64,000 nt of DNA, from the NCBI RefSeq assembly GCF_900156655.1, contig NZ_FTOG01000010.1:1-64000 (forward strand), given 5' to 3'. Positions within the stretch are counted from its first letter, which is position 1; every line of letters begins with the position of its first letter. The translations under genes were made by a program, and so were the position numbers. This document shows, one piece after another, positions 44,544-60,975 of the stretch. Source of the DNA: Rhodobacter aestuarii. Its GTDB lineage: Bacteria; Pseudomonadota; Alphaproteobacteria; Rhodobacterales; Rhodobacteraceae. Below the pieces are notes generated by a model, which saw only the letters and a list, made by a program, of their open reading frames with translations, was not told the DNA's origin and ran no database searches.

Positions 44544-45683
44544 ATGACGGCCCATTTTATCACCGCTGCCTGTTTTCGGCAGACGGGCTATTCTGGTAAC
44601 CATCCGCTGGCCATTCCGCGCGTTGGAACGGTGGAGCGACTTTGCGAGGCGCTGGGCTGGTTTGGGCGCGGCCATGCGCCGCTTGAATGCTTGCCCGCCA
44701 GCCGGGCCGAGATTGCCCGGTTCCATCAACCCGATTATCTAGACGCGATCCAGCGGTCCGAGGCGGCTGGCCATGCCAGCAGCGAAGATCGCGCGCGCTA
44801 TCACATTGGCACTTTGGAAAACCCCGTTTTCGAGGGGCTTTGGCATCGTGCGGCGGTGTCTGTGGGGGGCGCGATGCTGGCGGCACGGCTTGCGCATCAA
44901 GGCGCGGTGGCCTTTCATCCCGGCGGCGGCACGCATCATGGGCTGCGCGGACGCGCGAGCGGCTTTTGCTTCCTCAATGATCCGGTTTTTGCAATCTTGA
45001 CGCTTCTCGATCTTGGTCGTTCGCGCGTCCTTTATGTCGATTTTGATGCCCACCATGGCGATGGCGTGGAACTGGCCTTTGCCAAAGATCCGCGCGTGAT
45101 GACGCTTTCCCTGCATGAGGCGGGTCGCTGGCCCTTTACCGGCGGGGCCGAAGATCAGGGGGAAACGCTTCGCAATTTGCCGCTTCCGCCGCGGCTCAAT
45201 GACACCGAATTCGACTGTGTTTTGGAAAAGGCTGTGCTGCCTGCCGCGCGCGACTTTGCTCCCGATGCGGTGGTGGTGACGGTGGGGGCGGATGCGCTTT
45301 TGGGTGACCCGCTTTCGTCGCTTGCTATTACCAACACCCGGCTTTGGGCCGCGACCGATGCAGTTTGTGCCTTGGCTTCGGCGCGGGTGGTTTTGGGCGG
45401 GGGGGGCTATAACCCTTGGACGCTGGGGCGCGCTTGGGCAGGGCTTTGGGCACGGCTTTCGGGGCAAGACATTCCTGCGCAACTGCCCAAAGCGGCGCGC
45501 AGCGTTTTAGAAAGTCTCGATTGCGATTTGGTCGAGCCTGAAGACCGCGCAGCGGTTTGGTTTGAACGCATCGCCGACCCGGAAAACCCCGGCCCGATCC
45601 GGCCGGAGGTCGAGGCGCTTGTTGCCGCCACCTGCGGCTTTTCCGCGACGATAGGAAGGAGGCTTCCATGCGTGACTGGATAG
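44544..45683 (+). CDS. Histone-deacetylase-family deacylase in the lipoate operon
   Basis: The protein has 379 residues. It has an intact HDAC-fold active site: His131-His132 in GGGTHHGLRGRASGFCFLND, the zinc ligands Asp168 and His170 in YVDFDAHHGDGVE, the third Asp in GADALLGDP, and the catalytic Tyr in LGGGGYNPWTLG. Bacterial members (AcuC, acetylpolyamine amidohydrolases) remove acyl groups from lysines or amines. It overlaps lipS1 by 16 bp, so it is translationally tied to lipoate assembly. A role as deacylase acting on a lipoylated or octanoylated lysine is attractive but is inference. An ordinary AcuC-like role is the alternative. Confidence 0.88.
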   Translation: MTAHFITAACFRQTGYSGNHPLAIPRVGTVERLCEALGWFGRGHAPLECLPASRAEIARFHQPDYLDAIQRSEAAGHASSEDRARYHIGTLENPVFEGLWHRAAVSVGGAMLAARLAHQGAVAFHPGGGTHHGLRGRASGFCFLNDPVFAILTLLDLGRSRVLYVDFDAHHGDGVELAFAKDPRVMTLSLHEAGRWPFTGGAEDQGETLRNLPLPPRLNDTEFDCVLEKAVLPAARDFAPDAVVVTVGADALLGDPLSSLAITNTRLWAATDAVCALASARVVLGGGGYNPWTLGRAWAGLWARLSGQDIPAQLPKAARSVLESLDCDLVEPEDRAAVWFERIADPENPGPIRPEVEALVAATCGFSATIGRRLPCVTG

Positions 45684-46702
45684 AGCGTTTGGGCGATATT
45701 GAGCCGCTGGAAGATGCGGTATTCGACGCTGGTTTGGTGGCCGAAATGCAGGCGCATGCCGCGCGCACACGCGCCCGACCCGTGCGCTTTTCCACGCCCA
45801 CATTCAAGGAATATGACAGCCAAGAGATCAAAGGCTGTGGCAAGAACGCTTTCCCGGCCTTTTCGATCACGGGCGGCGCCTGCGCGCTTGATTGCGATCA
45901 CTGTAAGGCGAAGATCCTTGAACCAATGATCCCGGCCACAAAGCCCGAGGAATTGGATCGCAAAGTCCGCGATCTGGTGATGTTGCAAGGTTTGCAGGGG
46001 TTTTTGCTCTCCGGCGGTTCGAACCGGCGCAATGAAATTCGCTATGATAAATTCTATCCGGTGATCGAGGGGCTGAAACGCGATTTCCCTGAGATGCGGA
46101 TCGCCATCCATACCGCGCTGACCGATGTGGCGGGCGCCAAAAGGATGGAGGCGGCGGGCGTCGATACGGCGATGATGGATGTGATCGGCGCGCAAGAAAC
46201 GATTGAGCAGGTCTATCATCTTCAGCGCCCGGTGGAGGATTTTGAGGCAACGCTTGCCGCGCTCAGCGCCACGAAAATGGAAATCTCGCCCCATATCGTG
46301 ATTGGGCTGCATTACGGGCAACTTTTGGGCGAAGAGCGCGCGCTGGAGATGGTTGCGCGCTATCCAACGAAGGCGCTTGTTTTGGTGGTGGTGATGCCGT
46401 TTTACGCAACGCCCGGCACCTTCGCCACCGTTCCCGCCGATGATGTGGGGCGCATCTTTTTGCGCGCGCGGCAGGTGCTGCCGGATCGCGATGTGCTTTT
46501 GGGCTGCGCGCGCCCTGCGGGGATGCATAAGCGTATCACCGATGCCTATGCGGTGATGGCGGGGCTGGATGGCATTGCCTTCCCGGCGGAGGGTGCGGTG
46601 GCGGTGGCCGATATGATTGGGCGACCTTGGGAGCAAGCCCATGCTTGCTGTTCGATCAAGCTCGGGCAGGGGGAAAGTCTGCGTGCGGGGTGCGCGGCAT
46701 GA
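45668..46702 (+). CDS. lipS1: Radical SAM lipoyl synthase component LipS1
   Basis: The protein has 344 residues. A radical SAM cluster motif, Cys72-x3-Cys76-x2-Cys79 (CALDCDHC), is followed by the partial barrel (GFLLSGGSNRRNEIRYDKFYPVIEGLKRDFPEM, AIHTALTDVAGAKRMEAAGVDTAMMDVIGAQETIEQVYHL). The C-terminus has an extra Cys pair (ACCSIKLGQGESLRAGC). LipS1 and LipS2 together insert the two sulfurs into octanoyl groups, replacing LipA. The order lipS1-lipT-lipS2-sLpl beside sHdr genes supports the name; swapping of the two LipS labels cannot be fully excluded. It overlaps lipT by four bases. Confidence 0.85.
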   Translation: MRDWIERLGDIEPLEDAVFDAGLVAEMQAHAARTRARPVRFSTPTFKEYDSQEIKGCGKNAFPAFSITGGACALDCDHCKAKILEPMIPATKPEELDRKVRDLVMLQGLQGFLLSGGSNRRNEIRYDKFYPVIEGLKRDFPEMRIAIHTALTDVAGAKRMEAAGVDTAMMDVIGAQETIEQVYHLQRPVEDFEATLAALSATKMEISPHIVIGLHYGQLLGEERALEMVARYPTKALVLVVVMPFYATPGTFATVPADDVGRIFLRARQVLPDRDVLLGCARPAGMHKRITDAYAVMAGLDGIAFPAEGAVAVADMIGRPWEQAHACCSIKLGQGESLRAGCAA

Positions 46703-47781
46703 GTGTGGATGTGCTGATTGTCGGGCTTGGCCCGGCGGGGGCATCTGCCGCAGCGGCGGCGGCACAGGCGGGGGCGCGGGTGCTGGCGGTAGATAAACGC
46801 GCCACACCGGGCCAGCCCGTGCAATGCGCTGAATTCGTGCCTGCGGCGCTCGCTTTGGAAACCCCCGCCGTGCGCGCTGCTGCGGTGCAAGAAATCGCCG
46901 CGATGGAGACGTATTTGACCGATGACCCGCTGCGCAGCGCGGGCTTTTCGGGCGTGATGATCGACCGCGCGCGCTTTGATGCGGCTCTGGTCGCGCAAGC
47001 CCTTAAGGCGGGCGCGGAACTTGTCTCTGGCTGTGCGCTTGTGGCGTTTACGGAGGATGGCGCTGCGCTTTTGGCCGATGGGCGCCGTTTTACTCCCCGT
47101 GTGGTGATCGGTGCCGATGGTCCGCGCTCAGCCGTCGGGCGGGCCGTTGGGTTGGTGAACCGCGATTTGTGCGAGGCGCGGCAAATCACCGTACCGCTGC
47201 GGGTCGCCCATGATGCGACCGATATTTTCCTCGCGCCCGAGATTGTCGGCGGCTATGGCTGGCTTTTTCCGCGCGGAGATGAGGCGAACCTTGGTCTTGG
47301 CGTGGCAGCACAGGCGCGCGGGAGCCTTAAGCCCCTGCTTGAGCAACTCCATCAAGAACTGATCGCCGAAGGTCGTGTGGGCACTCAGGCGCGCCGCTTG
47401 ATCGGGGGCACAATACCCGTGGGGGGCTTGGTTGGCCCGGTTGCGCGGCGTGGTGCGGCAACTGTTTTGCTGGCGGGCGATGCGGCGGGTCTGACCCATC
47501 CGATTACCGGCGCGGGGATCGCAACAGCGGTTCTTTCGGGCCGGATGGCGGGCGAGGCTGCTGCGCAAATGGCCGCCGGGAAGGCTGCGGCAGAGACGGA
47601 TTATGCTGAGGAAATCGAAGATCTGTTTGGCCCCTCGCTTACACTTGCGGTGCGCCGCCGCGCCGAATTGATGGCGCATTACGCGGCGGGCCGCCGCCCC
47701 GATGTGGCTGCTTTGCGCCGCGCGTGGATTGCTTGGCCCGAATACCGCACAGACCCCACCCGCGTGGAGGAGCTCGCATGA
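46699..47781 (+). CDS. lipT: FAD-dependent oxidoreductase LipT (geranylgeranyl-reductase-like)
   Basis: The protein has 360 residues. It has an N-terminal FAD motif VDVLIVGLGPAGASAAAAAAQAGARVLAVDKR, the middle VVIGADGPRSAVGRA, and the late GDAAGLTHPITGAGIATAVLSGRMAG typical of geranylgeranyl-reductase-like flavoproteins. In lipoate operons of sHdr organisms such a protein (LipT) is thought to supply electrons to the LipS enzymes. Start and stop both overlap neighbours by four bases (ATGA), so expression is coupled. An unrelated lipid or quinone reductase role would not explain this context. Confidence 0.87.
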   Translation: MSVDVLIVGLGPAGASAAAAAAQAGARVLAVDKRATPGQPVQCAEFVPAALALETPAVRAAAVQEIAAMETYLTDDPLRSAGFSGVMIDRARFDAALVAQALKAGAELVSGCALVAFTEDGAALLADGRRFTPRVVIGADGPRSAVGRAVGLVNRDLCEARQITVPLRVAHDATDIFLAPEIVGGYGWLFPRGDEANLGLGVAAQARGSLKPLLEQLHQELIAEGRVGTQARRLIGGTIPVGGLVGPVARRGAATVLLAGDAAGLTHPITGAGIATAVLSGRMAGEAAAQMAAGKAAAETDYAEEIEDLFGPSLTLAVRRRAELMAHYAAGRRPDVAALRRAWIAWPEYRTDPTRVEELA

Positions 47782-49058
47782 GTTGCACGAAATCCGAAAC
47801 CCCAGCCCAAGGCGTTGCCAGCGGCTTTAATGCGCCCGAAATTATGTTTCCGCGCGCCCCGGCGCCGACACCTGCTGGCATGAAAAACGGTGGTGCGGTG
47901 AAACAGGCGGGCCACGCGCCGCAGGGGCTTTACCGCCCAGATTATCGGGTGATGACGCCTGCCATGCGCTCGCCCGACTACGTGCAAATGTCGACCGCCG
48001 CCGCGATCACACTCGGGCTGGTGGAGGGGCAGATGTATAATTGTTCCTGCACGCGCTGTTTGAACCTGCTTTTGACCTATCCCGAGGGATGCCGGGCCAA
48101 TTGCGCCTATTGCGGGCTCGCGCGCCACCGCGAGGCCGAGCGCAATTATGCGGACCGCAACTTTATCCGCGTGGATTGGCCCGCCGTGCCGATGGCCGAG
48201 GTGGTGGACCGGATCGCGGCAGATGTCGAGAATACGCCCTTCCAACGCATGTGCATTTCCATGATCACGCATCCGAACTCAGATGCCGATACCGTAACGG
48301 TGCTGAAGACATGGACCGACCGGATCGACCCGGATCAAATCCCAATCTCGATCCTGTCGAACCCGACAACGATGACGCGTGAAGATGTTGTGCGGTTGCG
48401 GGATATGGGATCGGATATTTTTACCGTGGCGCTTGATGCTGCGACGCCGATGATCTTTGACCGCACGCGCGGCAAAGGCGTGCAATCGCCGCATTCTTGG
48501 GCGGGCTATTGGGAGGCGCTTGACTGGGCGCGCGATGTGTTCGGCCCGCAAAAGTTCGGCGCGCATCTGATCGTTGGCATGGGCGAGACCGAGGCCGAGA
48601 TGCTGGCCGTGGTGCAGCGCTTGGTCGATATGGGCGGGCACAGCCATATGTTTAGCTTCTACCCCGAACAGGGCAGCTTGATGGACCATCTGCCTGCCAC
48701 CCCGCGCGACCAATGGCGGCGTGTGCAACTGGGGCGCTATCTGATCGACTATTATGGGGTGCGGGTGGAACAGATGCGGTTTGATCATCTGGGTCGGGTG
48801 GCGGATTTTGGGCTGCCGCAATCGGAATTGGATGCGATCATTGATGCCGGGATCGCCTTTCGCACCTCCGGTTGCCCGGGCAAGTTTGCCGAAGATATTT
48901 CCGCCTGCGATCGGCCCTATGGCGACAGCCCGCCCTCGGACATCGCGTCTTACCCCTTTGCGCTGCGTCCGGTGGATATCAAACGGGTGCGCAGCCAGTT
49001 GAATATGGCGCGGGCCAACGAGAGCTATGAGCCGGGAGAGGAGTTCGAATATGACTAA
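47778..49058 (+). CDS. lipS2: Radical SAM lipoyl synthase component LipS2
   Basis: The protein has 426 residues. The radical SAM motif is Cys105-x3-Cys109-x2-Cys112 (CRANCAYC). A second cluster-like Cys set precedes it (NCSCTRC, residues 89-94). The barrel region has ISMITHPNSDADTVTVLKTW, DIFTVALDAATPMIFDRTRGKG and HLIVGMGETEAEML, similar to biotin-synthase-like enzymes. It partners LipS1 in sulfur insertion on protein-bound octanoyl groups. It overlaps lipT at the start and ends seven codons inside a frame that could extend the next gene, whose own ATG lies at 49051. Confidence 0.87.
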   Translation: MSCTKSETPAQGVASGFNAPEIMFPRAPAPTPAGMKNGGAVKQAGHAPQGLYRPDYRVMTPAMRSPDYVQMSTAAAITLGLVEGQMYNCSCTRCLNLLLTYPEGCRANCAYCGLARHREAERNYADRNFIRVDWPAVPMAEVVDRIAADVENTPFQRMCISMITHPNSDADTVTVLKTWTDRIDPDQIPISILSNPTTMTREDVVRLRDMGSDIFTVALDAATPMIFDRTRGKGVQSPHSWAGYWEALDWARDVFGPQKFGAHLIVGMGETEAEMLAVVQRLVDMGGHSHMFSFYPEQGSLMDHLPATPRDQWRRVQLGRYLIDYYGVRVEQMRFDHLGRVADFGLPQSELDAIIDAGIAFRTSGCPGKFAEDISACDRPYGDSPPSDIASYPFALRPVDIKRVRSQLNMARANESYEPGEEFEYD

Positions 49059-50133
49059 GCCTTTCCGCGTGATTGATACGGGGGTGCGGCCGGGCCGTGC
49101 GCAGATCGCTTTTGATCAGGCACTGATCGAGGCGCATAAGGCGGGCACCATCCCCGATACGATCCGTTTTTTGACCTTTCCGCCCACGGTTTTGGTGGGG
49201 CGGCATCAGGCGATTGGGCAGGAGTTGAACTTGCCCGCTTGCCGCGCCGCGGGGGTCGGGATTGGGCGGCGCGTCACGGGCGGCGGCGCGCTTTATTTGG
49301 ATGAAGGCCAGTTTGGTTGGGAATTGGTGTTTCACAAGCAAACCCTTGGCTTGCCCAGCTTGGGCGATGTGGCGCGTGAATTGTGCGAGGCAGCGGCTGA
49401 GGGGCTGCAAAGCCTAGGAATTGCCGCACGCTACCGCCCGCGCAATGACATTGAGGTGGAGGGGCGGAAGATCTCGGGCACCGGTGGGTTCTTCGACGGC
49501 GACACGATCTTTTATCAGGGCACGATCTTGCGCGATATGGATGGGGCGAAGATGGCGGGGCTGTTGAACATCCCCGCCGCCAAGCTCGCACGCCATGGGG
49601 CGCAAGCCGGGGCACAGCGGATCGTGACAATGACCGAACTGTTCAACGGTGCTCCGCCGCCCGAAGCCGAGGTGAAAGAGGCGCTCGTCGCGGCTTTTGC
49701 TAAGCGGCTTGGCATTGCGCCCTCTTGGGGGGCGATCACCGCTGAGGAAGAGGCACTGGCGCAAAAGTTCCATGACGAAGAGATCGGCACAGATGAGTTC
49801 GTCTACGGCATTGATGATCCGACCCGCGTGGCGGATGTGCTTTCGGGGACGCATGCCGGGGCGGGGGGCACAATTACCGCGCATCTGCGGCTTGAAGGCC
49901 CCGCGCATGACCGCATCCGCGAGGTGCTGTTCACGGGCGATTTCTTTGTTGCCCCGCCGCGGATCGTGCCGGATTTGGAGGCGTCTTTGCGCGGGGTCGA
50001 ACTTGCTGACGTGGAAAGCACCGTGGCGCAGTTTTTTGAAAACGCGCGAGCGGCGCTGATGTCCGCCCCCGGCAGCGATTTTGCGCGTGCGGTGCGCGTG
50101 GCGGCGGCGATGCGTCACGAACCCGCAGGCTAA
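49051..50133 (+). CDS. slpl: Lipoate:protein ligase sLpl(AB)
   Basis: The protein has 360 residues from an ATG preceded by GAGAGGAG. The ligase core has RRVTGGGALY (residues 73-82), RNDIEVEGRKISGTGGFF with the conserved Lys140, and FYQGTILRDMD. A C-terminal region of about 100 residues corresponds to the accessory LplB-type domain, giving a fused AB form. In the sHdr-associated pathway this enzyme loads octanoate or lipoate on LbpA, after which LipS1/LipS2 add sulfur. It ends four bases inside the LysR gene on the opposite strand. Confidence 0.9.
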   Translation: MTKPFRVIDTGVRPGRAQIAFDQALIEAHKAGTIPDTIRFLTFPPTVLVGRHQAIGQELNLPACRAAGVGIGRRVTGGGALYLDEGQFGWELVFHKQTLGLPSLGDVARELCEAAAEGLQSLGIAARYRPRNDIEVEGRKISGTGGFFDGDTIFYQGTILRDMDGAKMAGLLNIPAAKLARHGAQAGAQRIVTMTELFNGAPPPEAEVKEALVAAFAKRLGIAPSWGAITAEEEALAQKFHDEEIGTDEFVYGIDDPTRVADVLSGTHAGAGGTITAHLRLEGPAHDRIREVLFTGDFFVAPPRIVPDLEASLRGVELADVESTVAQFFENARAALMSAPGSDFARAVRVAAAMRHEPAG

Positions 50134-51011
50134 AGCCTCGGGTCTGGCAGGGCGAGGCGCAAAAAGGCCTTTGCCGCTTCTGTCAGGTGGCGTTCGGGGT
50201 GCATCAGCAGCCGGAAGTTGCGCGCGGCGGGCGGGGCCTCTAGCCGCACCAGCCGCCCATCGGCCAGTTCAGCCTCCACCGCGAGCCGCGAAATGAGCGT
50301 GGCGCCGCCACCTGCGATCACCGCTGAGCGCACCGCTTCATTTGAGGGGAATTCAAGCTTGCCACCGGGATTGGGCACGCCCATTTCGACCAACGCTTCA
50401 TCCATCCGCGCGCGGGTGCCAGAGCCTTCTTCGCGCATGATCCATGGGCCAGCGGCAAGAACGTCTTGGCTTGGGGCGCTTGCCGCCCAAGGGTGGCCGG
50501 GGGCAACGACCAGATACAGCTCATCTTCACCGAAGGGTTCATCGCTGAGGCCGGGGTGGGCGGCGCCGCCTTCGATAAAACCGAAATCGGCGGAAAGGGC
50601 GGCGACCTCATGGCCCACGGTTTCGGAATTGGCAGTCACCAGATCAAGCGCAATGCCGGGATAGGCCGCGTGAAAGCGCACAACGAGCGGCGGCAGCCAA
50701 TAGGTGGCAAGGGTTTGGCTTGCGGCAATGCGCAGGCTGCCCCGTGCAAGCCCGGCAAGATCATCCAGCACCCGTTCGGCGGCGGCGGCGCGTGCAAGCA
50801 CGGCACGCGCTTCGGGGACGAAAAGCTTGCCCGCATCCGTCAGTTTGATGCCGCGCCCGACCCGGTCAAAGAGCTTGGTGCCGTGGCGGGCTTCCAGTGC
50901 AGAAACGGCGGCAGAAACCGCCGATTGCGTCAGGTGCAAAGCTTCTGCGGCGCGGGTCACATGCTCGCGTTCTGCCACCGCCAGAAAGATGCGCAATTGC
51001 TCAAGGGTCAT
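50130..51011 (-). CDS. LysR-family regulator next to YeiH exporter
   Basis: The protein has 293 residues. The N-terminal LysR helix-turn-helix is LEQLRIFLAVAEREHVTRAAEALHLTQSAVSAAVSALEARHGTKLFDRVGRG. The effector domain has LARGSLRIAASQTLATYWLPPLVVRF and MREEGSGTRARMDEAL. It lies 9 bp after yeiH on the same strand, the same partnership as YeiE-YeiH in enterobacteria, where YeiE responds to sulfite. By position it is a candidate regulator of the exporter and possibly of the sulfur genes on both sides. It is tail to tail with sLpl. Confidence 0.92.
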   Translation of the reverse strand: MTLEQLRIFLAVAEREHVTRAAEALHLTQSAVSAAVSALEARHGTKLFDRVGRGIKLTDAGKLFVPEARAVLARAAAAERVLDDLAGLARGSLRIAASQTLATYWLPPLVVRFHAAYPGIALDLVTANSETVGHEVAALSADFGFIEGGAAHPGLSDEPFGEDELYLVVAPGHPWAASAPSQDVLAAGPWIMREEGSGTRARMDEALVEMGVPNPGGKLEFPSNEAVRSAVIAGGGATLISRLAVEAELADGRLVRLEAPPAARNFRLLMHPERHLTEAAKAFLRLALPDPRL

Positions 51012-51020
51012 GGCCCGAAG

Positions 51021-52010
51021 TTAAAAGAGCGAAGCGCCCATGACCAGTACGAAGGTCACACCGGCAATGAAGAGCGAAGCCACAAGGCCAAGCGCGAGCG
51101 GGCGCACCCCTTTGGCGCGCAGCCGGCCAACATCGGTTTGCAGCCCCATTGCGGCAAGCCCCATCGCCAACAGCACCTGCGTGACTGGGCCAGAAGCTTT
51201 GGTGACGAACTCGGGCACATAACCGGTGGAGGCCAGCCCAACCATGGCGATGAAGCCGATCACGAACCACGGAAACGGCGCGCGGCCAGAACTGCCCACG
51301 TGGCGCGCCATGATCAGGATCAGCGGTGCCAAAAGGGCAACCCGGGTCAGTTTGGCGATGGTGGCAAAAGCGGTCGCTTCCGGCCCGCCTTGCGCACCGG
51401 CGGCAACCACCTGCGCCACTTCGTGGATCGAGGCGCCTGCCCAAAGCCCATAATTATGCGCGCTCATCGACTGGCCGACCACCGGGTAAAGCACCATCGC
51501 GAGCGTGCCGAAAATGGTGACCGAGGCGATGGCATAGGCCACATCTTCATCGCTTTCGCGCCCAACGGCATTTGCCGCAAGCACGGCAGACGCCCCACAG
51601 ATCGAGGTGCCGGTGGCGATCAACCGCGTGAGCCCGGCTTCCACGCCCAGCCAGCGCCCGGCGGCCAGCGTGAAGAAATAGGTGGCAAAAAGCCCAATCA
51701 AGATCGTCGCAAGCCCCATGCCGCCGACCGATAGCACTTGCCCCAGCGTGAGTTGCAGACCCAGCGTCACAATGCCAGCGCGCAAGAGCCGCCGCAGCGA
51801 AAAGGCAAGCCCCGGCACAGCGCCTGCGGGCAAGCCGTAGGTGTTGCGCACGACAACGCCGATGACGATGGCGATGATCAGCGGGCTGAACATGGAAACC
51901 CCCGGCAGGATGCGCACGGCAAAGGCTGCCGCCACGATTGCCGCCACCAAGGAGACCCCGGGCCAGATCGAAATGCGTGGCTCGGCGGCCGGAACGGCGG
52001 TGGCAGTCAT
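51021..52010 (-). CDS. YeiH-family putative sulfate exporter
   Basis: The protein has 329 residues from an ATG preceded by AAGGAG, with about ten hydrophobic segments. It matches the UPF0324/YeiH family: IAIVIGVVVRNTYGLP, RAGIVTLGLQLTLGQVL, GTSICGASAVLAANAVG and AMGLAAMGLQTDVGRLRAKGVRPLALGL. The family is annotated as putative sulfate or sulfite exporters of the inner membrane. In the middle of an sHdr cluster, whose product is sulfite, export of sulfite or sulfate is a sensible role, though transport has not been shown for this protein. Confidence 0.9.
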   Translation of the reverse strand: MTATAVPAAEPRISIWPGVSLVAAIVAAAFAVRILPGVSMFSPLIIAIVIGVVVRNTYGLPAGAVPGLAFSLRRLLRAGIVTLGLQLTLGQVLSVGGMGLATILIGLFATYFFTLAAGRWLGVEAGLTRLIATGTSICGASAVLAANAVGRESDEDVAYAIASVTIFGTLAMVLYPVVGQSMSAHNYGLWAGASIHEVAQVVAAGAQGGPEATAFATIAKLTRVALLAPLILIMARHVGSSGRAPFPWFVIGFIAMVGLASTGYVPEFVTKASGPVTQVLLAMGLAAMGLQTDVGRLRAKGVRPLALGLVASLFIAGVTFVLVMGASLF

Positions 52011-52187
52011 GGCGGCTCCTTCGGGCTTGGCATCCGTGAGGGTGTTCAGATGCAAATAGCTTGATACGATTCCGTCATTCATAAAAGCGAAATGATATTA
52101 TTGAACTAATCGAAAAAAATGAACGAATGCGCCGCGCGTTGACTTGTGTGGTTTTCCTGCTCTGATCGAGGCAAAGGGGAGGATGCG

Positions 52188-52961: not shown

Positions 52962-53001
52962 ACTCCGATAAAATGTGGTCACGGTCGTTTGGGAGGGCGC
53001 C

Positions 53002-53434: not shown

Positions 53435-54190
53435 ATGAATGCGCATACCAAGACGACACAACCTCAGATTGCAGACCCGGTCTCGGAAAAGCCGGTCGTG
53501 GCCTATGAAGAACTCGAAGAAATCTTCGACGATATTCGGGGCCATCCGCTTTACGATCACGAGATTCACGGCTGTCTGAATTGTGGGATTTGCACCGCCA
53601 CCTGCCCCTCGGCGCAGTATTATGATTATTCGCCGCGCGAGATTGTTCAGCTGCTTTGGACCGAAAATCTCGAGGGCATTTACGACGCGATGCATGAGAA
53701 AATTTGGGCCTGCGCGCAATGCTATACCTGTGCCGCGCGCTGCCCGTTTGAAAACTCGCCCGGTGGGCTGGTGATGATCATGCGCGAAGTGGCGATCAAA
53801 CATGAATTGCCCTCGGTGAAAGAGGTGCTGCGGCCATTTTCGCGCGTTCTGCTCAAGGTTGTGTCGACCGGTAACCAGTTGGCGCCGAACATGATTACCC
53901 GGGAAGCCTTTCCCGATTGGGGGCCGAATGTCGCGAAGGTCGATGCGCCGCTGATGGTGCTGCGCAAGGCGATCCCGATGCCGACGATGCACACGCTCGA
54001 CACAGCTTGGGAGGTGAACCTGCGCACCTCGGTCGAGCTTTATACGATTTGGGAGGCGACCGGGGTGCTCAAGCAGCTCGAACAGGTCGATGAGAACCTC
54101 TTCGACGTGGTCTCTGACGTGATGGAGGAGAAGCGCGACGAATGGGAGGAATGGCTCGAAGAGCAAGAAGAGGACGATGACGACGATTGA
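53435..54190 (+). CDS. shdrC1: sHdr complex iron-sulfur subunit C1
   Basis: The protein has 251 residues. Two 4Fe-4S motifs are complete: CLNCGICTATCP near residue 48 and CAQCYTCAARCP near residue 92. The C-terminal half is helical and ends in a very acidic tail (EEWLEEQEEDDDDD). HdrC subunits shuttle electrons between the FAD subunit and HdrB. It is the first core gene of the shdrC1B1AHC2B2 cluster. The ATG at 53435 has GGGGAGG upstream. It acts in the cytoplasm. Confidence 0.94.
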   Translation: MNAHTKTTQPQIADPVSEKPVVAYEELEEIFDDIRGHPLYDHEIHGCLNCGICTATCPSAQYYDYSPREIVQLLWTENLEGIYDAMHEKIWACAQCYTCAARCPFENSPGGLVMIMREVAIKHELPSVKEVLRPFSRVLLKVVSTGNQLAPNMITREAFPDWGPNVAKVDAPLMVLRKAIPMPTMHTLDTAWEVNLRTSVELYTIWEATGVLKQLEQVDENLFDVVSDVMEEKRDEWEEWLEEQEEDDDDD

Positions 54191-54249
54191 GCGTCGCCGC
54201 CACGCCCGTGGCGAAATGAGGCCCGCAGCTTTTGGGAGGAGTGCGGCAG

Positions 54250-55629
54250 ATGGCCAACGAGACCGAGGGGAAAGGCGCCTATAATGGCTTTGGCGCCGAT
54301 TGGGCCCCCACCAACTTGACCGAAAACGAGGCGCAGCGCGCCACCGATTGGGTCACACAAAAGATCGACAAGCGCTTCCTTCTGACCGGCAAAGACCGCA
54401 AAGAAGATGTGCGCGATATCATGTGGCAGCTTGAAAAAGAGGGTGAAATCGTCGTGCATCGGGTGGGGGATCATCACGCCCCCGAAATGGCGAAAACGCT
54501 TTACGGCTGGGACAAGAAGATCCCGACGACGAACCTTTGGCACCACAAGTCCTGCGGCCAATGCGGCAATATTCCGGGCTATCCTTCCTCGGTGCTGTGG
54601 ATCATGAACCAACTTGATCTGACGTACCTTGATGAGACGGATCAGACCTCTTGCACGGCATGGAATTACCACGGCTCGGGCATCGGCAATGTGGTTTCGC
54701 TGGCCGCCGTGTTCTTACGTAACATGCATCAGGCCTATGTGTCGGCGAAGGCGCAGGGGCTCCCAGAAGGCACCTATTACCCACTCATCCACTGCGGAAC
54801 ATCCTTCGGAAACTACAAAGAAATCAGGGGCTTTTTGCTGCATTCGGCAGAGCTGCGCGAAGAGGTCAAAAAGATCCTCGGCAAGCTGGGGCGGCTGGTG
54901 GATGGAAAGCTTCTGATCCCGGAAGAGATCGTCCATTACTCGGAATGGCTGCACGTCATGCGCCACCGGATCAAAGAGCGCCAGCAGATCGACGTGTCGA
55001 ACATCCGCACCACGGTGCACCCGGCCTGCCATGTCTATAAAATGGTGCCGGAAGACGTGATCTATGACGATACGGTGATGAATGGTGACCGGGTCGCGGT
55101 GACGACGGGGCTTTTGAATAGCCTTGGCACGCAGGTGATCGACTATTCCACGTGGTATGATTGCTGCGGATTTGGTTTCCGCCACATCATCGGCGAGCGT
55201 GAGTTTACCCGCTCCTATGCGATTGATCGCAAAATCAAGGTGGCGGTCGAAGAGGCGCGGTCAGATGTGATGATCGGCCATGACACCGGCTGCATCACCA
55301 CGCTCGATAAAAACCAGTGGATCGGCAAGGCGGTGGACAAGGTCTATGCGCTGCCGGTGATGGCCGATTGCCAGTTTGCGGCGCTGACGATGGGCGCGCA
55401 TCCCTACAAACTTGCCCAACTCCATTGGCACGCAAGCCCGTTCGAGGGGCTGCTCGAGAAAATGGGGATCGACTGGGAAAAGGCGAAGGCCGAGTTCGAG
55501 AGCTATCTCGAAGAGGTGAAAGAGGGCCGGATTGAGACGCTTTATGACCCCAAGCGCGCGATCACCTCAGGCCCCGGCTACGTCAAACCCCCGAAAAGCC
55601 TGCCCGAAAAAACCGAACAGGGAGCGTGA
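54250..55629 (+). CDS. shdrB1: sHdr complex subunit B1 (CCG domain)
   Basis: The protein has 459 residues from an ATG preceded by GGGAGGAG, longer than classic HdrB (about 300). The first Cys-rich part has CGQCGNIPGYPSS and DQTSCTAWNYHGSG. The second has HPACHVYK and DCCGFGFRH, but then DTGCITTLDKN, where a classic CCG domain has CxxC. Cluster ligation therefore probably differs from HdrB. HdrB-type subunits carry the non-cubane clusters that cleave disulfides; here they are thought to act on a lipoamide-bound sulfur. Confidence 0.92.
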   Translation: MANETEGKGAYNGFGADWAPTNLTENEAQRATDWVTQKIDKRFLLTGKDRKEDVRDIMWQLEKEGEIVVHRVGDHHAPEMAKTLYGWDKKIPTTNLWHHKSCGQCGNIPGYPSSVLWIMNQLDLTYLDETDQTSCTAWNYHGSGIGNVVSLAAVFLRNMHQAYVSAKAQGLPEGTYYPLIHCGTSFGNYKEIRGFLLHSAELREEVKKILGKLGRLVDGKLLIPEEIVHYSEWLHVMRHRIKERQQIDVSNIRTTVHPACHVYKMVPEDVIYDDTVMNGDRVAVTTGLLNSLGTQVIDYSTWYDCCGFGFRHIIGEREFTRSYAIDRKIKVAVEEARSDVMIGHDTGCITTLDKNQWIGKAVDKVYALPVMADCQFAALTMGAHPYKLAQLHWHASPFEGLLEKMGIDWEKAKAEFESYLEEVKEGRIETLYDPKRAITSGPGYVKPPKSLPEKTEQGA

Positions 55630-55632
55630 AGT

Positions 55633-56688
55633 ATGAGTGAGAAACCCATCCTGATCGTGGGCGGTGGCCCGGCGGGGCTTTCGGCGGCCCATGCGGTTGC
55701 GGCCTCGGGTCGGCAAGCGGTGATTGTGGAAAAGGCCGACCGTCTGGGCGGCGCGCCGATCTTGCAAGGCTATGCGAAACTCGTGCCGAGCCATGAATGG
55801 GCGAAAGATGCCATCGGCGGCATGGTCACGCGGGTGCAGCAAAACGCGAAGGTCACCGTGCACACCGGCGCGCAGGTGCAAAGCTTTGCGGGCGATCCGG
55901 GGAGCTTCGTTGCGACGCTGAAAGACGGCACGAAGATCGAGGCCGATGCGGCGATCTTGGCCACCGGCTTCACGCATTTCGACAGCCTCAACAAGCCGGA
56001 ATGGGGCTTTGGCACTTACCCGGATGTGGTGACCACGGTGCAGGTGGAGCAGATGATTTCCTCGGGCAAGGGCATCCGCTGCCCGTCCGATGGCCGTGTG
56101 CCCGACCGGGTGGCGATCTTGCTGTGCGTCGGCTCGCGCGACCGGCAGATTGGCCGCGAATGGTGCTCGAAAATCTGCTGCACAGTTTCGGCCAATATGG
56201 CGATGGAAATTCGCGAACTGAGCCCCAAAACCAACGTCTATATCTATTACATGGATATCCGCACCTTCGGGCTCTACGAGGGCGAGTTCTACTGGAAGAG
56301 CCAAGAAGAAGCGCGGGTCAAGTACATCAAGGCGCGGATCGCCGAGGTGACTTCGGACGGCAAGCGGCTTGTCGTGAAGGGCGAGGATACGCTGGTCAAG
56401 CGCCCGATCACCATTCCCTTCGACATGGTGGTGCACGCGATCGGTATGGACCCGAATGTCGATAACATGACCCTCGGCTCGGTCTTCGGCGTCAACCTCA
56501 ACCAATATGGCTATATCGGCAAGGCGGCAGCCTACACCACCACCGGCCAAACCTCGCGCCCCGGTGTTTATGTGTGTGGTGCGGCCTCTGGCCCGGAAAC
56601 GATTGACGATTCCATTGCGCAAGGCCAAGCGGCGGCGATTGCCGCGCTGTCGCGCCAAGGCGTGGGCATGGCACAGGCGGCAGAGTGA
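55633..56688 (+). CDS. shdrA: sHdr complex FAD subunit A
   Basis: The protein has 351 residues. The FAD-binding motif is ILIVGGGPAGLSAAHAVAASGRQAVIVEKADRLGG at the N-terminus. A 4Fe-4S motif follows in LLCVGSRDRQIGREWCSKICCTVSANMAMEI. The C-terminal FAD segment is GVYVCGAASGPETIDDSIAQGQAAA. It is shorter than methanogen HdrA, lacking extra ferredoxin domains, as expected for sHdrA. It follows shdrB1 by 3 bp and overlaps shdrH by four bases. Confidence 0.95.
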   Translation: MSEKPILIVGGGPAGLSAAHAVAASGRQAVIVEKADRLGGAPILQGYAKLVPSHEWAKDAIGGMVTRVQQNAKVTVHTGAQVQSFAGDPGSFVATLKDGTKIEADAAILATGFTHFDSLNKPEWGFGTYPDVVTTVQVEQMISSGKGIRCPSDGRVPDRVAILLCVGSRDRQIGREWCSKICCTVSANMAMEIRELSPKTNVYIYYMDIRTFGLYEGEFYWKSQEEARVKYIKARIAEVTSDGKRLVVKGEDTLVKRPITIPFDMVVHAIGMDPNVDNMTLGSVFGVNLNQYGYIGKAAAYTTTGQTSRPGVYVCGAASGPETIDDSIAQGQAAAIAALSRQGVGMAQAAE

Positions 56689-57578
56689 TGTTTGGCCGTA
56701 ATCGCAAACAGGCGGTGCTTGCCAAAGGCCCGGTGCTGGACCTTTCAGGGGATCGTTTGCGCCGCGCCTTCACCAATTTGGGCGAGTCCGCGCAGCCGAC
56801 CGGCGGGGTCAGCCGCTATATCACGGCACTGCATCTGAAATCGGCGCTTTTCAAAGAGCTGTTGGGGCAGTCTGCCACCGGGATCACCGAGACCGAATTC
56901 CTTGATTTGGCGGCCTTTATCGCGCCGGTGCGCCGTCGCATTGGTCCGGCGATTGCGCGGATCGGTATCGAAGAAATGGCCGCGCGGATTGAGGTGCTGT
57001 TGCACGGCGGTGGCACGGTGGAGGAGCGGCTGGCCCATTTCATGGCGAGCTTCCCGGATGGCAAGGAAATGCGTTGGGTGCGCGACCTTGGGGCGGAGCT
57101 TTTGCATTTCACCCAGCCCTCGGTCCCGCTGATGACGCGCTGGATCTGGGATGCGCGCGTTTCCACCGGAGTATTGCGTGAGATTTGGCATGCCGAAGAC
57201 GTCGATGCCGCAGAAATCACCGCGCCCGATGATCTGGCGACCTTCACCACCTTGCGTGCCGAGATTGACGGTTTTCTGGAAGGCGAAGGCGTCTACCGTG
57301 ACCGGCTTTGGATGACCGATCTGCTGATGGCGCATATCTATGCGGGCTATATCAATGATCGCGGCGGGCAATATCTGCGCAATGATTTCACGCAAGAAGG
57401 CGATCCGATGCTGCACACGCGCCGGATGCTGGGTCTTGATGCTGTGGATACCAAGACCGGGCGCACTCGACTGCGGTTGATTGATGGCTCCGCCCATGAA
57501 TTTGGCGGTTCGCTTTCCGCCCGTCTCGACCTGACCACCGCCGAAGACGCTCCGGAGGCTGCTGATGCCCATTCATGA
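56685..57578 (+). CDS. shdrH: sHdr cluster protein H
   Basis: The protein has 297 residues with no Cys-rich motif, no signal peptide and no clear enzyme signature. It is mostly helical (LHLKSALFKELLGQSATGITETEFLDLAAFIAPVRRRIGPAIARIGIEEMAARIEVLL). The conserved position between shdrA and shdrC2, and overlaps with both, identify it as sHdrH. The protein is always present in this system and its exact role is not known. Confidence 0.9.
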   Translation: MMFGRNRKQAVLAKGPVLDLSGDRLRRAFTNLGESAQPTGGVSRYITALHLKSALFKELLGQSATGITETEFLDLAAFIAPVRRRIGPAIARIGIEEMAARIEVLLHGGGTVEERLAHFMASFPDGKEMRWVRDLGAELLHFTQPSVPLMTRWIWDARVSTGVLREIWHAEDVDAAEITAPDDLATFTTLRAEIDGFLEGEGVYRDRLWMTDLLMAHIYAGYINDRGGQYLRNDFTQEGDPMLHTRRMLGLDAVDTKTGRTRLRLIDGSAHEFGGSLSARLDLTTAEDAPEAADAHS

Positions 57579-58311
57579 AAAGACCCTGATCCGGCCCGAG
57601 AACCTGGTGACCAATGATGAGTTGGTGATTGATGGCGTCGATGTCTCGGGCCATTGGTCCACCTTCATCAAGCCGCGCACGATCACCGATTATAACGAGG
57701 CGATGCAGGAGGAAATCGCGGCGCTGCCGGGGGGCGAGAACATCCACCGCTGCTGGCAATGCGGCTCTTGCACCAATTCCTGCACGATGAATGCGGTCAA
57801 CCCCGAGTTCAACCCGCGCTACTGGATTTACCTGATCCGGCAGGGGCTTGAGGAAGAACTGCTGCGCGACAAGGACATCATCTGGCAATGCGTGTCGTGC
57901 AACAAATGCACCTATGCCTGCCCGCGCGATGTGGTGCCCGAAGCGGTGATGAAAGCCACTGCGCATTGGCTGGAGTTGAAGGGCCATACCAGCGAAAGCC
58001 CGTCTTCGGTGTTCGACCGGGGCTTTACCGACAATGTGCTGAAGTCCGGCAAGATCGAGGAAGGCCATGTGCTGCGCATCTTCTTTTGGCGCACCGGGCA
58101 GCCGCTCGCGCCGCCGTGGCTGCGGGACCTGATCGCTGGCTTGGTGAAGAAATTCCCGGTCTTTTACTTGTTCAACCTGCTGAAAACGGCGGTGTTCCGG
58201 CCCAAAACGCGTGGCTGGGGCAAAACCGGCGTGGCGATTGAGGACTATGTGCGCGAACGCCATGCCGAACAGGCGCAGGCGCTTGGGCTTTCGGGCAAGG
58301 GGGGGCACTGA
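57565..58311 (+). CDS. shdrC2: sHdr complex iron-sulfur subunit C2
   Basis: The protein has 248 residues. Two cluster motifs lie in the first half: CWQCGSCTNSCTM, where the usual Pro after the fourth Cys is Thr, and CVSCNKCTYACP. The C-terminal half has a hydrophobic stretch (LIAGLVKKFPVFYLFNLLKTAVF) that could contact a membrane or partner. It pairs with shdrB2, whose ATG overlaps its stop. Confidence 0.94.
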   Translation: MPIHEKTLIRPENLVTNDELVIDGVDVSGHWSTFIKPRTITDYNEAMQEEIAALPGGENIHRCWQCGSCTNSCTMNAVNPEFNPRYWIYLIRQGLEEELLRDKDIIWQCVSCNKCTYACPRDVVPEAVMKATAHWLELKGHTSESPSSVFDRGFTDNVLKSGKIEEGHVLRIFFWRTGQPLAPPWLRDLIAGLVKKFPVFYLFNLLKTAVFRPKTRGWGKTGVAIEDYVRERHAEQAQALGLSGKGGH

Positions 58312-59249
58312 TGGCCAAAGATCTCAAGGAAAAGGATCTCAAACAGGTGGCCTATTATCCGGGCTGCGCGCTTGAGGGGACGGGGCACGCCTATAACCGT
58401 TCTACCAAGGCGGTGGGCAAGGCGCTTGGGCTTGAACTCGTTGAGGTGAAAGACTGGAACTGCTGCGGCGCGATGGAGGTAAAAAACATCGACCCGCAGG
58501 TGCAAACCTACCTTTCGGCGCGCAATCTGACGAAGACCGAAGAGATGGGCTTTAATGTGGTGATGGCGCCCTGCAACGGCTGCTATCACAACCTCAAAAA
58601 GGCCGAATACGATCTGGCGCAGAACCCACAGGCGGTGGAGGCGAACGAGCGTATCTCCGCCAAGGCGGGGCACCATGCCTATAGGCCCGGCGGCGTTGAA
58701 ACGATCCACGCGCTGGATTGGCTTAAACGTGCGGTGGGCGAGGAAGAATTGGCGCGCCGCACCGCAGGCAAGCTCAAGGGCATGAAGGTCGCGAATTACT
58801 ATGGCTGCATGTACACGCGCCCGCGCCACATCTTCCCCGAGAAAGATCAGGGCGAAGGTAGCGAGTCGACTTACGCGCCGCATTTCATGGATGATCTCTT
58901 GGCCTCTGCAGGCGCAGAGAACGTAGATTTTCCTCTGAAAACGGCCTGCTGCGGCGGCGCGCATGCAATGTCGGATGCCGATACCTCAACCCAATTGGTG
59001 CTCAATATCCTGACGACGGCGGAGGCCTGCGGGGCCGAAGTCATCGCTACCGAATGCCCGACCTGTCACACCAGTTTGGAAATCCATCAACTGCGTGCCG
59101 AGAAGCTTTTGGGCCGCAAGACCAATGTTAAAATCCTCTATTTCACGCAGCTTTTGGGCATGGCGCTAGGCCTTTCGCAGCGCAAGGTGGGGGTGGCCGA
59201 GAATATGGCCGATCCGCGCGCCTATTTGCGGGAAAAGGGGCTGAAGTGA
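58311..59249 (+). CDS. shdrB2: sHdr complex subunit B2 (two CCG domains)
   Basis: The protein has 312 residues. Two complete CCG domains are visible. The first is GCALEGTG, WNCCGAME and PCNGC. The second is YGCMY, TACCGGAH and CPTCH. They should hold two non-cubane 4Fe-4S clusters, the disulfide-cleaving type of HdrB. Unlike subunit B1, all ligands appear present, so B2 is the better candidate for the catalytic subunit. Confidence 0.95.
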   Translation: MAKDLKEKDLKQVAYYPGCALEGTGHAYNRSTKAVGKALGLELVEVKDWNCCGAMEVKNIDPQVQTYLSARNLTKTEEMGFNVVMAPCNGCYHNLKKAEYDLAQNPQAVEANERISAKAGHHAYRPGGVETIHALDWLKRAVGEEELARRTAGKLKGMKVANYYGCMYTRPRHIFPEKDQGEGSESTYAPHFMDDLLASAGAENVDFPLKTACCGGAHAMSDADTSTQLVLNILTTAEACGAEVIATECPTCHTSLEIHQLRAEKLLGRKTNVKILYFTQLLGMALGLSQRKVGVAENMADPRAYLREKGLK

Positions 59250-59662
59250 TGGACACGGTTTTCCCCGAAATTCTGGCCGAAATCGACGCGGGGCTTGAGG
59301 GGCGCGCTGAACTACCCTCGCCTGACGCGCTTTTAAAACGGGCTGAAGAGATTTTGGAAGCCTGGCTCGCGGCGCGTGGCGAAGTGCCCGAAGCGGGGGA
59401 GGTGGAGGGCTTTCGGCTGCTGGCGCTACACCGGCAGGGCTGCAAGGGCACACCCAGTTTTAACGCCTGTCGTGAGACCTGCCGCGAAATAGTATTTCGC
59501 AGAAACGTCACACTGGAATACGGTGAAGATACGGTCACCGCCCATCGATTGGAGGCGATGGTGGTGAAGCATTTGGCCCTCTTCGTCGGTGGTAAGCTTG
59601 AGCAGACGGGGCTGGGCGAATTTTGTTGTTCGTCACGTCCGTTGCATGCGGGCGTGGCCTGA
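59249..59662 (+). CDS. Conserved hypothetical protein between shdrB2 and lbpA
   Basis: The protein has 137 residues. Five Cys are spread as CKG, CRETC and a final FCCSSRP, six in all counting the pair, so metal or sulfur binding is possible. The middle (EIVFRRNVTLEYGEDTVTAHRLEAMVVKHLALFVGGKL) looks like an alpha/beta domain. I recognise it only by context: a hypothetical gene often sits here in sHdr-lbpA clusters. It overlaps the shdrB2 stop and is followed 13 bp later by lbpA. Confidence 0.75.
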   Translation: MDTVFPEILAEIDAGLEGRAELPSPDALLKRAEEILEAWLAARGEVPEAGEVEGFRLLALHRQGCKGTPSFNACRETCREIVFRRNVTLEYGEDTVTAHRLEAMVVKHLALFVGGKLEQTGLGEFCCSSRPLHAGVA

Positions 59663-59675: not shown

Positions 59676-60119
59676 ATGCCCATCGTGCGCGGATGTAACC
59701 TGCCCGACGAGCTTTTCTATGATGTGCCCAACAACCTTTGGTATCGTGCCGAGTCCGACGGCACCTATACCGTTGGGATGACGATGATCGCCACGGCCAT
59801 GGCCGGGGCGCTGGTGGCCTTTACGGCCAAAAAGGTCGGCAAGACGATTGATGCGGGCAAATCGGTCGCCACGGTTGAAAGCGGCAAATGGGTCGGCCCG
59901 GCAAAAATCGGGTTCCGCTCTGAAATTGTCGCCGTGAACGACGAACTGACCGGCAGCCCCAAGCTTGCCAATACCGACACTTATGGTGCGGGCTGGATGG
60001 TGCGGGTGAAGCCCGAAGACCCGGCCGCCGCTGCGGCGGTTTTGGTGCCGGGGTCAGAGGTCGCCGGGCCCTATGAGGCCAAGATGGAAGCCGATAACTT
60101 TGCCGGCTGCGCGGCCTGA
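59676..60119 (+). CDS. lbpA: Lipoate-binding protein LbpA (GcvH-like)
   Basis: The protein has 147 residues from an ATG preceded by AGGAGG. It is a lipoyl domain like glycine cleavage H protein: YTVGMTMIATAMAGALVAFTAKKVGKTIDAGKSVATVESGKWVGPAKIGFRSEIVAVNDEL. Lys71 in ESGKW is the lipoylation site. The late GAGWMVRVKPED is also GcvH-like. In sHdr organisms LbpA carries sulfur intermediates on its lipoamide and is essential for sulfur oxidation. The absence of glycine-cleavage genes here and the sHdr setting exclude a housekeeping GcvH. Confidence 0.95.
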   Translation: MPIVRGCNLPDELFYDVPNNLWYRAESDGTYTVGMTMIATAMAGALVAFTAKKVGKTIDAGKSVATVESGKWVGPAKIGFRSEIVAVNDELTGSPKLANTDTYGAGWMVRVKPEDPAAAAAVLVPGSEVAGPYEAKMEADNFAGCAA

Positions 60120-60130
60120 TTGATGTGAGT

Positions 60131-60244: not shown

Positions 60245-60736
60245 ATGACGGATACAGAAACCAAATCCATGTCGATCATTGTCACCAAGGGCACGCTCGA
60301 CTGGGGCTACCCGCCGTTCATTCTGGCCACGACCGCGGCCGCGATGGGGCTAGAGGTGACGATGTTCTTCACCTTTTACGGGCTGACATTGCTCAAGAAA
60401 AAGCTCGACCTAAAGATCAACCCGCTGGGCAATGCGGCGATGGAAATGCCCATGGGCGGCATGCATATGGCGATGCCCAACATCGTGGCTGCGATGCCCG
60501 GCGCGACCGCGCTTACCACCACGATGATGAAGGATATGCTCAAGAAAAAGGGCGTCGCCTCGATCGAGGAGCTGCGCGAAATGGCGGTGGAGGCGGATGT
60601 GAAGATCATCGCCTGCCAGATGACCATGGACCTTTTTGAATACAAGAAAAGCGACATGATCGACGGGCTCGAACTGGGTGGCGCGGCCACTTGGGTCGAT
60701 GCCGCGACGCGCTGCGACATCAATCTTTACATCTGA
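60245..60736 (+). CDS. DsrE/DrsH-like sulfur transferase
   Basis: The protein has 163 residues from an ATG preceded by GGGAGGGAG. It fits the DsrE2/DsrE3-type family: SIIVTKGTLDWGYPPFILATTAAAMGLEVTMFFTFYGLTLLKK, then a Met-rich loop (AAMEMPMGGMHMAMPN). Cys124 in IIACQMTMDL and Cys157 near the end are candidate sulfur carriers. It is followed by tusA 11 bp later; DsrE-TusA pairs move sulfane sulfur as protein persulfide or thiosulfonate to oxidation systems. The N-terminal hydrophobic stretch is part of the fold rather than a clear membrane anchor. Confidence 0.9.
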   Translation: MTDTETKSMSIIVTKGTLDWGYPPFILATTAAAMGLEVTMFFTFYGLTLLKKKLDLKINPLGNAAMEMPMGGMHMAMPNIVAAMPGATALTTTMMKDMLKKKGVASIEELREMAVEADVKIIACQMTMDLFEYKKSDMIDGLELGGAATWVDAATRCDINLYI

Positions 60737-60747
60737 GGGAGGAACAG

Positions 60748-60975
60748 ATGATGGCTGATCAGGTGCTTGATGCAAAAGGGCTCAATTGCCCTTTGCCAAT
60801 CTTGCGGGCGAAAAAGGCGATCAAGGACATGACCGCCGGGCAGGTTCTTGAAATTCAGGCAACCGACCCCGGCGCGGTGAAGGATTTTGAAGCCTTCTGC
60901 CGCACCACCGGCAATGAAATGGTGGACCATCACATGGATGGCGGCACCTATGTGTTCAACATCCGGGTCAATTGA
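60748..60975 (+). CDS. tusA: Sulfur carrier protein TusA
   Basis: The protein has 75 residues. The family signature VLDAKGLNCPLPILRAKKAIKDM contains the sulfur-carrying Cys14 in the CPxP motif. TusA holds persulfide sulfur and exchanges it with rhodaneses and DsrE proteins. Two adjacent ATG codons follow GGGAGG; the first is given. It closes the sulfur operon and converges with the stress-protein gene, with only 3 bp between them. Confidence 0.96.
   Translation: MMADQVLDAKGLNCPLPILRAKKAIKDMTAGQVLEIQATDPGAVKDFEAFCRTTGNEMVDHHMDGGTYVFNIRVN

Follow-up and report, generated by a model that had tools for sequence, protein, structure and literature searches.

What is a complete sHdr-LbpA sulfur oxidation system for in a Rhodobacter genome that also encodes Sox? 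The locus that raises this question lies on contig NZ_FTOG01000010.1 of Rhodobacter aestuarii (assembly GCF_900156655.1), in a stretch of 64,000 nucleotides that we call the window; all coordinates are window positions. Positions 45668-60975 hold a complete type I sHdr-LbpA set (sulfur-oxidizing heterodisulfide reductase-like proteins and lipoate-binding protein) with its own lipoate assembly genes. The sHdr-LbpA system itself is already known, and both its placing in Rhodobacter and an earlier interpretation made from the letters of the window (the sequence-only reading) are sound. Very likely the system works in the cytoplasm, where it oxidizes sulfane sulfur to sulfite and replaces the absent SoxCD; for this proposal the sulfur substrate and the oxidative direction are taken from the literature on Hyphomicrobium (here and below, papers are cited from excerpts of their text).

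A complete type I gene set

All the lip, dsrE, shdr, lbpA and tusA genes named by the sequence-only reading are present in the window, in the order it gave and with no internal stops. The boundary had to be corrected: the gene starting at 44544 belongs to the histone deacetylase (HDAC) family and is not lipS1, which starts further downstream (Table 1). The gene list was right as far as it went, but it had missed three genes that follow sLpl(AB) and precede the first DsrE gene: a LysR gene and yeiH, both on the minus strand, and lipX. The ‘hypothetical’ placed before lbpA exists; by position it is the sHdrI of PMC11582611.

With type I defined as in PMC11582611, the genes shdrC1B1AHC2B2 form one syntenic cluster (53435-59249); C2 and B2 are encoded in separate frames, where type II has a fused shdrB3; and LbpA, whose scores against GcvH models stay under the cut-offs (see below), bears the lipoate lysine. 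This residue, Lys71, had been pointed out before; it sits inside ESGKW, a motif shared by all 70 aligned rows, from 66 loci. The two CCG domains expected in sHdrB2 were recognized as C19/C51C52/C88xxC91 and C166/C213C214/C249xxC252, and the radical-SAM Cys triplets expected of the lipoate enzymes were found in LipS1 and LipS2.

For comparison we used 80 loci from named genomes. They rank highest among 528 confirmed sHdrB1 matches, which tilts the set toward Alphaproteobacteria; it includes several near-copies, and contig ends truncate many of the loci, genes beyond the end being scored as absent. Residue tallies were made after a filter on length and identity, which left 75 LipX, 70 LbpA and 15 HDAC rows (second copies of fetched loci among them: four, four and two, respectively). 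The order C1-B1-A-H-C2-B2 was present in 68 of the 80 loci and the full order lipX-dsrE3-C1-B1-A-H-C2-B2-I-lbpA-dsrE2-tusA in 41, so a chance arrangement is excluded.

Some members of this set stood out for other reasons. Two metagenome-assembled genomes (MAGs) named Exiguobacterium profundum and Klebsiella pneumoniae (L069 and L091) carry proteobacterial-type sHdr (91% and 74% sHdrB1 identity) and are probably mislabeled bins; in the locus of Acidimangrovimonas sediminis (L040) dsrE3 occurs twice, the extra copy (85%) lying upstream of lipX.

That the genome is of the Rhodobacter type was confirmed by the nearest named loci, those of Rhodobacter sp. TJ_12 (L016; 98% sHdrB1 identity) and R. 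maris JA276 (L017; 94%). In both, the order from the HDAC gene to tusA equals that of the window, and so does cbbL-cbbR; TJ_12 differs in the absence of a usp gene and in one HDAC residue considered below. We met with no publication on the TJ_12 and R. maris loci, although strain names were not used as search terms. Rhodobacter sp. SW2 (L020) and Har01 (L019) have the same sHdr core, with cbbR-cbbL of Har01 downstream of tusA; they differ in having no match to lipS1/T/S2 or HDAC in the fetched stretch, and the ligase before lipX is 32-36% identical to sLpl(AB), that of SW2 being of LplA/B type.

The shdr-lbpA2 system of Hyphomicrobium denitrificans (PMC6067878, PMC10332631, PMC11582611) has in common with the window the type I core, lipS1-lipT-lipS2-slpl(AB)-lipX and the genes for DsrE, TusA and sHdrI. 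In both genomes a periplasmic Sox start would feed sHdr, and both have a yeiH-LysR pair; in H. denitrificans the locus numbers of this pair (Hden_0834/0835) put it away from shdr, whereas here it is inside the cluster. Also unlike H. denitrificans, the lipoate genes here are headed by an HDAC-like gene, and a RuBisCO operon lies alongside.

Two proteins of the set were modeled. The sHdrH model is confident and all-helical (pLDDT 86.5); nothing in the PDB matched it at E <= 0.001, the best value being 0.82, so the fold predicted by the model may be undescribed. The sHdrI model is helical as well (pLDDT 90), with Cys78, Cys126 and Cys127 invariant in 53 rows; its best PDB match, Sulfolobus P95883 (2q00; E 0.41, probability 0.98), is too weak for use.

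Sox without SoxC and the fate of sulfur

The presence of sHdr had been called notable because the Rhodobacter group is better known for Sox. The genome does have Sox, but a Sox lacking SoxCD, and sHdr is no stranger to the family: at least 17 of the 80 locus records bear Rhodobacteraceae or Paracoccaceae names, and one Rhodobacteraceae MAG with Hdr-like genes has been published (PMC13384644).

The Sox locus of R. aestuarii contains a flavoprotein gene besides genes resembling soxR, S, V, W, X, Y, Z, A and B. NCBIfam cut-offs were passed by SoxX, Y, Z, A and B; for R, S, V, W and F the naming comes from position and the look of the sequences. No soxC follows these genes, and the whole assembly gave 0 matches to SoxC (TIGR04555) and to PF00174, the sulfite-dehydrogenase fold, SoxD not having been searched for apart. 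The same PF00174 search was positive in 9 of 14 control genomes.

Among 18 genomes of the genus, SoxC above cut-off was found in six, all SoxZ-positive and all sHdr-negative. SoxZ above cut-off was found in eight, and the only two of them without SoxC are the sHdr carriers G000 and G004 (p 0.036 by Fisher's exact test on these eight, no kinship correction; matches under cut-off, of SoxC in four more genomes and of SoxZ in G009 at E 7.7e-4, were not counted). As the six SoxC genomes lack sHdr, and the only two SoxZ-positive genomes without SoxC carry it, sHdr probably replaces SoxCD. That sHdr takes over sulfane sulfur otherwise oxidized by SoxCD was proposed for Hyphomicrobium (PMC11582611).

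In the route that we propose, SoxXYZAB in the periplasm would split thiosulfate, leaving sulfane sulfur on SoxYZ, and a YeeE-like SoxT would import this sulfur. TusA, DsrE2 and DsrE3 would pass it to LbpA-bound dihydrolipoamide, where the sHdr complex would oxidize it to sulfite. LbpA would be charged via a dedicated sLpl(AB)-LipS1/S2(-LipT) route, apart from housekeeping LipA and GcvH.

The sulfite formed would probably leave the cell on demand through the product of yeiH, which together with a LysR gene makes up the divergent minus-strand pair between sLpl(AB) and lipX. In H. denitrificans no genes responded more strongly to thiosulfate than yeiH (526-fold) and the adjoining LysR gene, and sulfite export by YeiH was proposed (PMC11582611). 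The pair embedded in the cluster supports this proposal.

Several observations weigh against such a picture. In G017, an sHdr carrier, SoxZ gave no match; sHdr there cannot serve only Sox-derived sulfur, and this organism must obtain sulfur in some other way. The Sox pattern rests on eight SoxZ genomes, and the carriers are related. A yeiH gene lies near sHdr in only eight of the 80 loci, and LysR and yeiH together in four. No sulfite oxidase was found either, PF00174 being absent and AprA reaching 23.6 bits against 641.75; SoeABC was not searched.

Lipoate genes, LipX and a linked HDAC-family gene

The genes lipS1, lipS2 and sLpl(AB) lie together (45668-50133), as expected of sLpl(AB)-LipS1/S2 assembly. 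LipS1 and LipS2 do not reach their curated NCBIfam cut-offs (Table 1); in a sample of 398 genomes from the phylum none reached the LipS1 cut-off, which is thus apparently set too high for this branch.

LipX is labeled a putative glutamine amidotransferase in PMC10332631. In 75 rows (71 loci), the Cys column of the triad has G in 60, E in 14 and N in one; the Glu column is Gly in all 75, while His is kept in 72. Three solved amidotransferase-like proteins place Cys at the same LipX column, two of them aligning weakly (E 0.004 and 0.016). Thus, LipX seems to retain the amidotransferase fold, but it cannot be a standard Cys-Glu amidotransferase, as catalytic Cys and Glu are absent in all rows.

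Many sHdr loci, SW2 and Har01 included, have the different ligase before lipX and no lipS1/T/S2 in the fetched stretch, and it is beside loci of this type that the core tree places the window group. The lipoate-module tree places the same group next to L092 and L095, which lie far off in the core tree (the two trees have 43 and 17 rows, hand-chosen from 81 loci). The HDAC tree, unlike the lipoate-module tree, puts it beside Solirhodobacter and Defluviimonas (97/90). The different placings in the core and lipoate-module trees suggest that the lipoate module, HDAC gene included, may have been swapped.

The HDAC-like gene was present in 11 of the 22 sHdr loci with lipS1 and in one of the 58 without (p 7e-7, uncorrected for kinship). 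The lone exception is the A. sediminis locus, where the match is cut by the locus end and the neighbor is out of view. Linkage tracks lipS1, and a role as a general companion of sHdr was rejected on these counts. Nine of the 11 linked loci have the gene next to lipS1 and in the same orientation; L092 and L095 have it about 12 kb away, on the opposite strand, between lbpA and dsrE2. A gap of about 1.2 kb separates HDAC from lipS1 in L177, L178 and L179 (G445, G273 and G367), with room for another gene.

A second draw of 398 genomes of the phylum overlaps the first (G773 and L045 give identical proteins). It gave LipS1 matches at E <= 0.001 in 69 genomes; we counted the eight below 1e-50 (the next was 2e-11) and dropped 61. 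An HDAC gene was directly upstream in seven of the eight, R. aestuarii included, the exception being G473. When ten linked genomes were fetched at 12-20 kb, sHdr core genes were seen in eight; G811 has lbpA, dsrE and tusA but no clear sHdr core, and for G159 the view was limited to 12 kb.

In the HDAC tree, 23 linked and 24 unlinked rows were parted by a single split with 100/100 support, and 0 of 500 label shuffles were as low. For the unlinked rows we took those of the 29 best class matches from other genomes that lacked the link, ‘unlinked’ meaning no lipS1 within 1.5 kb either side; as neighbors were viewed over this distance only, links such as those of L092 and L095 (12 kb) would be missed. 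Two of the 47 rows, L045 and L137, are identical (46 different), and L132 has a long branch and odd composition. With seven distant HDACs as outgroup (FastTree; 21 linked and 20 unlinked rows), support was 0.954 for the linked clade and only 0.129 for the unlinked one. The closest solved relative by sequence is HDLP of Aquifex aeolicus (1c3p/1c3r; E 2.5e-67); it was considered as a member of the lip-linked clade and rejected, as it fell outside both alphaproteobacterial clades in the outgroup tree.

The window protein has the residues of a zinc enzyme, H131-H132, D168, H170, D250 and Y289, which we take to be the His dyad, the Asp/His/Asp zinc ligands and the Tyr. Under the filter used, 15 positions differ between linked and unlinked copies: His125 is present in 21 of 21 linked and 0 of 20 unlinked HDACs, Ala103 stands against Pro, and Thr246 (19 of 21) against Gln. 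Presumably His125 is close to the catalytic dyad, and Thr246 precedes the zinc Asp.

What could this enzyme do? There is an even chance that it is an ordinary acetyl-lysine or acetyl-polyamine deacetylase unrelated to lipoate, kept by inheritance or for regulating sulfur or carbon enzymes through acetylation. The family is common (match at E 1e-20 or better in 197 of 385 genomes of the class), characterized bacterial relatives include deacetylases (PMC11532494), and half of the lipS1-bearing loci do without the gene, which is thus not essential to the pathway. Against this account, linked copies sit on one side of a fully supported branch from the 24 unlinked ones, differ from them at near-fixed positions (His125, Ala103, Thr246), and follow lipS1, not sHdr generally.

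Tentatively, and with a lower probability, the linked HDACs may be a subfamily of zinc-dependent lipoyl- or octanoyl-lysine amidases dedicated to LbpA, with LipX as a non-catalytic partner. Such an enzyme may cleave octanoyl, lipoyl or a wrongly attached acyl from lysine, either editing LbpA by stripping an unfinished or damaged cofactor, or freeing octanoate or lipoate that would feed the ligase. If true, this would answer where sLpl(AB) gets its free-acid substrate, the Thioalkalivibrio sLpl(AB) taking only free octanoate or lipoate (PMC10332631). Removal of lipoyl groups from lysine, the activity proposed here, exists in CobB and Sirt4 (PMC5596343), but those are NAD-dependent sirtuins of a different fold and chemistry. 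Bacterial HDAC-fold deacylases have varied chain preferences and include a weak de-decanoylase (PMC11532494); no ‘lipo-’ word occurs in the excerpts of that paper. Besides the loci without the gene, the amidase has against it TJ_12, where the first His of the dyad is Gln; the catalytic residues are otherwise kept in the rows examined. The ordinary deacetylase is as likely as the lipoate-linked amidase, or likelier.

We found no paper in open PubMed Central linking a histone deacetylase with lipS1 or sHdr sulfur oxidation; AcuC-type names were not searched and the set was the open one, so this silence is not proof of absence. The word ‘deacetylase’ occurs 0 times in the excerpts of PMC10332631 and PMC6067878, and PMC11582611 was not among the sHdr papers with the word.

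Place in the genus, neighboring genes and significance

The sHdr block is accessory, as its two flanks occur without it in non-carriers. Of 147 relatives searched, six gave a match to sHdrB1, one of these no better than E 2.2e-4 with 22% identity; among the 18 genus genomes there were just three. The cbb operon is present without sHdr in G009, G011 and G014, and the gntR flank in G006; cbb and gntR flanks were never together in the four non-carriers examined, and no exact empty site was seen. From cbbL to tusA, two congeners have the gene order of the window. Alternatively, an intact cluster might be cryptic, or a recent passenger, and contribute nothing to the oxidation of sulfur in R. aestuarii. 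We regard this as unlikely: the two congeners match every lip-shdr gene at full or nearly full length (about 72-98% protein identity), the GC content of the cluster resembles most of the window with no sign of recent import, and the cluster complements a soxCD-less Sox.

The sequence-only reading would have failed had the proteins proved to be methanogen or sulfate-reducer Hdr and housekeeping GcvH. In a comparison by profile scores, methanogen Hdr models are indeed the NCBIfam entries that sHdrA, B1 and C1 match best, no sHdr model being among the matches, but the scores are far from the cut-offs (HdrA2 217/1100, HdrB 112/450 and HdrC 84.7/270 bits), and sHdrC2 and sHdrB2 show the same pattern. 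LbpA scored under both GcvH cut-offs (100.9 vs 117 and 68.3 vs 115.85); a separate GcvH, above the cut-offs and 32% identical to LbpA, is encoded in the genome, as is a housekeeping LipA. With these scores, the separate GcvH, the sulfur-transferase genes and the conserved sHdr order, a reductive electron-bifurcating Hdr with LbpA as GcvH is very improbable, even though the subunits share HdrA/B/C domains.

The genes of the cluster and of the neighboring CO2-fixation operon are collected in Table 1. RuBisCO large-subunit genes near sHdr were seen also in L019 (Har01) and in the Mesorhizobium MAGs L018 and L021; this neighborhood thus recurs, in other positions and orientations.

Table 1. Genes of the sHdr-LbpA cluster and its left flank, with the matches behind their names
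Gene or product	Coordinates	Strand	Evidence
VWA protein, probably cbbO	38469-40796		VWA match
cbbQ	40762-41565		CbbQ_C match
cbbL, RuBisCO large subunit, part of neighboring CO2-fixation operon	42013-43443	-	PF00016 E 1.3e-136; NF003252 above cut-off
cbbR-like LysR regulator	43548-44438	+	best NCBIfam match CbbR NF045990, 268.9 bits vs cut-off 450
HDAC-family zinc deacylase gene	44544-45683	+	PF00850 E 1e-66; 16-base overlap with lipS1
lipS1, radical SAM lipoyl synthase part 1	45668-46702	+	NF053742 E 6.7e-55, 186.6 bits, cut-off 230
lipT, FAD oxidoreductase (GG-reductase-like), start uncertain	46699-47781	+	TIGR02032 191.2 bits, above cut-off 158.8; name from cluster position
lipS2, radical SAM lipoyl synthase part 2	47778-49058	+	NF053743 E 5.5e-53, 180.3 bits, cut-off 270
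sLpl(AB), lipoate:protein ligase, LplA/B-type	49051-50133	+	PF21948 E 1.2e-41
LysR regulator, YeiE-like	50130-51011	-	YeiE is the best NCBIfam model, 211.7 bits vs cut-off 480
yeiH, PSE-family exporter, candidate sulfite exporter	51021-52082	-	PF03601 E 5.3e-72; TIGR00698 187.8 vs cut-off 232.6
lipX, class I glutamine-amidotransferase-like, without catalytic Cys and Glu	52188-52886	+	NF005458 E 1.1e-13, under cut-off
dsrE3-type sulfur transferase, start GTG 52975 or TTG 53002	52975-53382	+	PF13686, PF02635; DsrE2 model only 24.8 bits vs cut-off 210; ‘E3’ label from position and literature
shdrC1	53435-54190	+	Fer4 and HdrC-like matches; two CxxCxxC motifs
shdrB1	54250-55629	+	CCG domain PF02754; 74-98% identity across fetched loci
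shdrA, flavoprotein	55633-56688	+	HdrA2-like, 217 bits, far under cut-off 1100
shdrH, start uncertain (open reading frame opens 56685)	56688-57578	+	no Pfam/NCBIfam match at E 0.001
shdrC2	57565-58311	+	Fer4; two CxxCxxC motifs
shdrB2, two CCG domains	58311-59249	+	PF02754 E 1.7e-24, two stretches
shdrI	59246-59662	+	no family match at E 0.001; conserved Cys; name by position
lbpA, lipoate-binding protein, Lys71	59676-60119	+	PF01597 E 1e-29
dsrE2	60245-60736	+	NF047629 233 bits, above cut-off 210
tusA	60748-60975	+	PF01206 E 3e-22

Elsewhere in the window, positions 2001-10000 are low in GC (about 51-55%), inside a stretch, 1450-11002, that looks like an integrated element: it contains two DUF6538 proteins (1453-2994, with weak phage-integrase matches, and 9264-10883) and an AAA/SMC-like ATPase (5571-7046), and a tRNA-Thr gene (10928-11002) lies at its end. 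Positions 27018-34255, with sugar-type ABC transporter genes and a fused class II aldolase/short-chain dehydrogenase, look like a sugar catabolism locus.

As far as our searches reach, the new findings are an exchange of Sox and sHdr inside a single genus, a yeiH-LysR pair embedded in the cluster, a clade of lip-linked HDACs and a dead site in LipX. The residue loss in LipX speaks against its published amidotransferase label. With sHdr and SoxC in different genomes of one genus, Rhodobacter offers a tractable setting for this exchange, beside a CO2-fixation operon, and the HDAC-like gene may point to an unrecognized step in the dedicated lipoate route.

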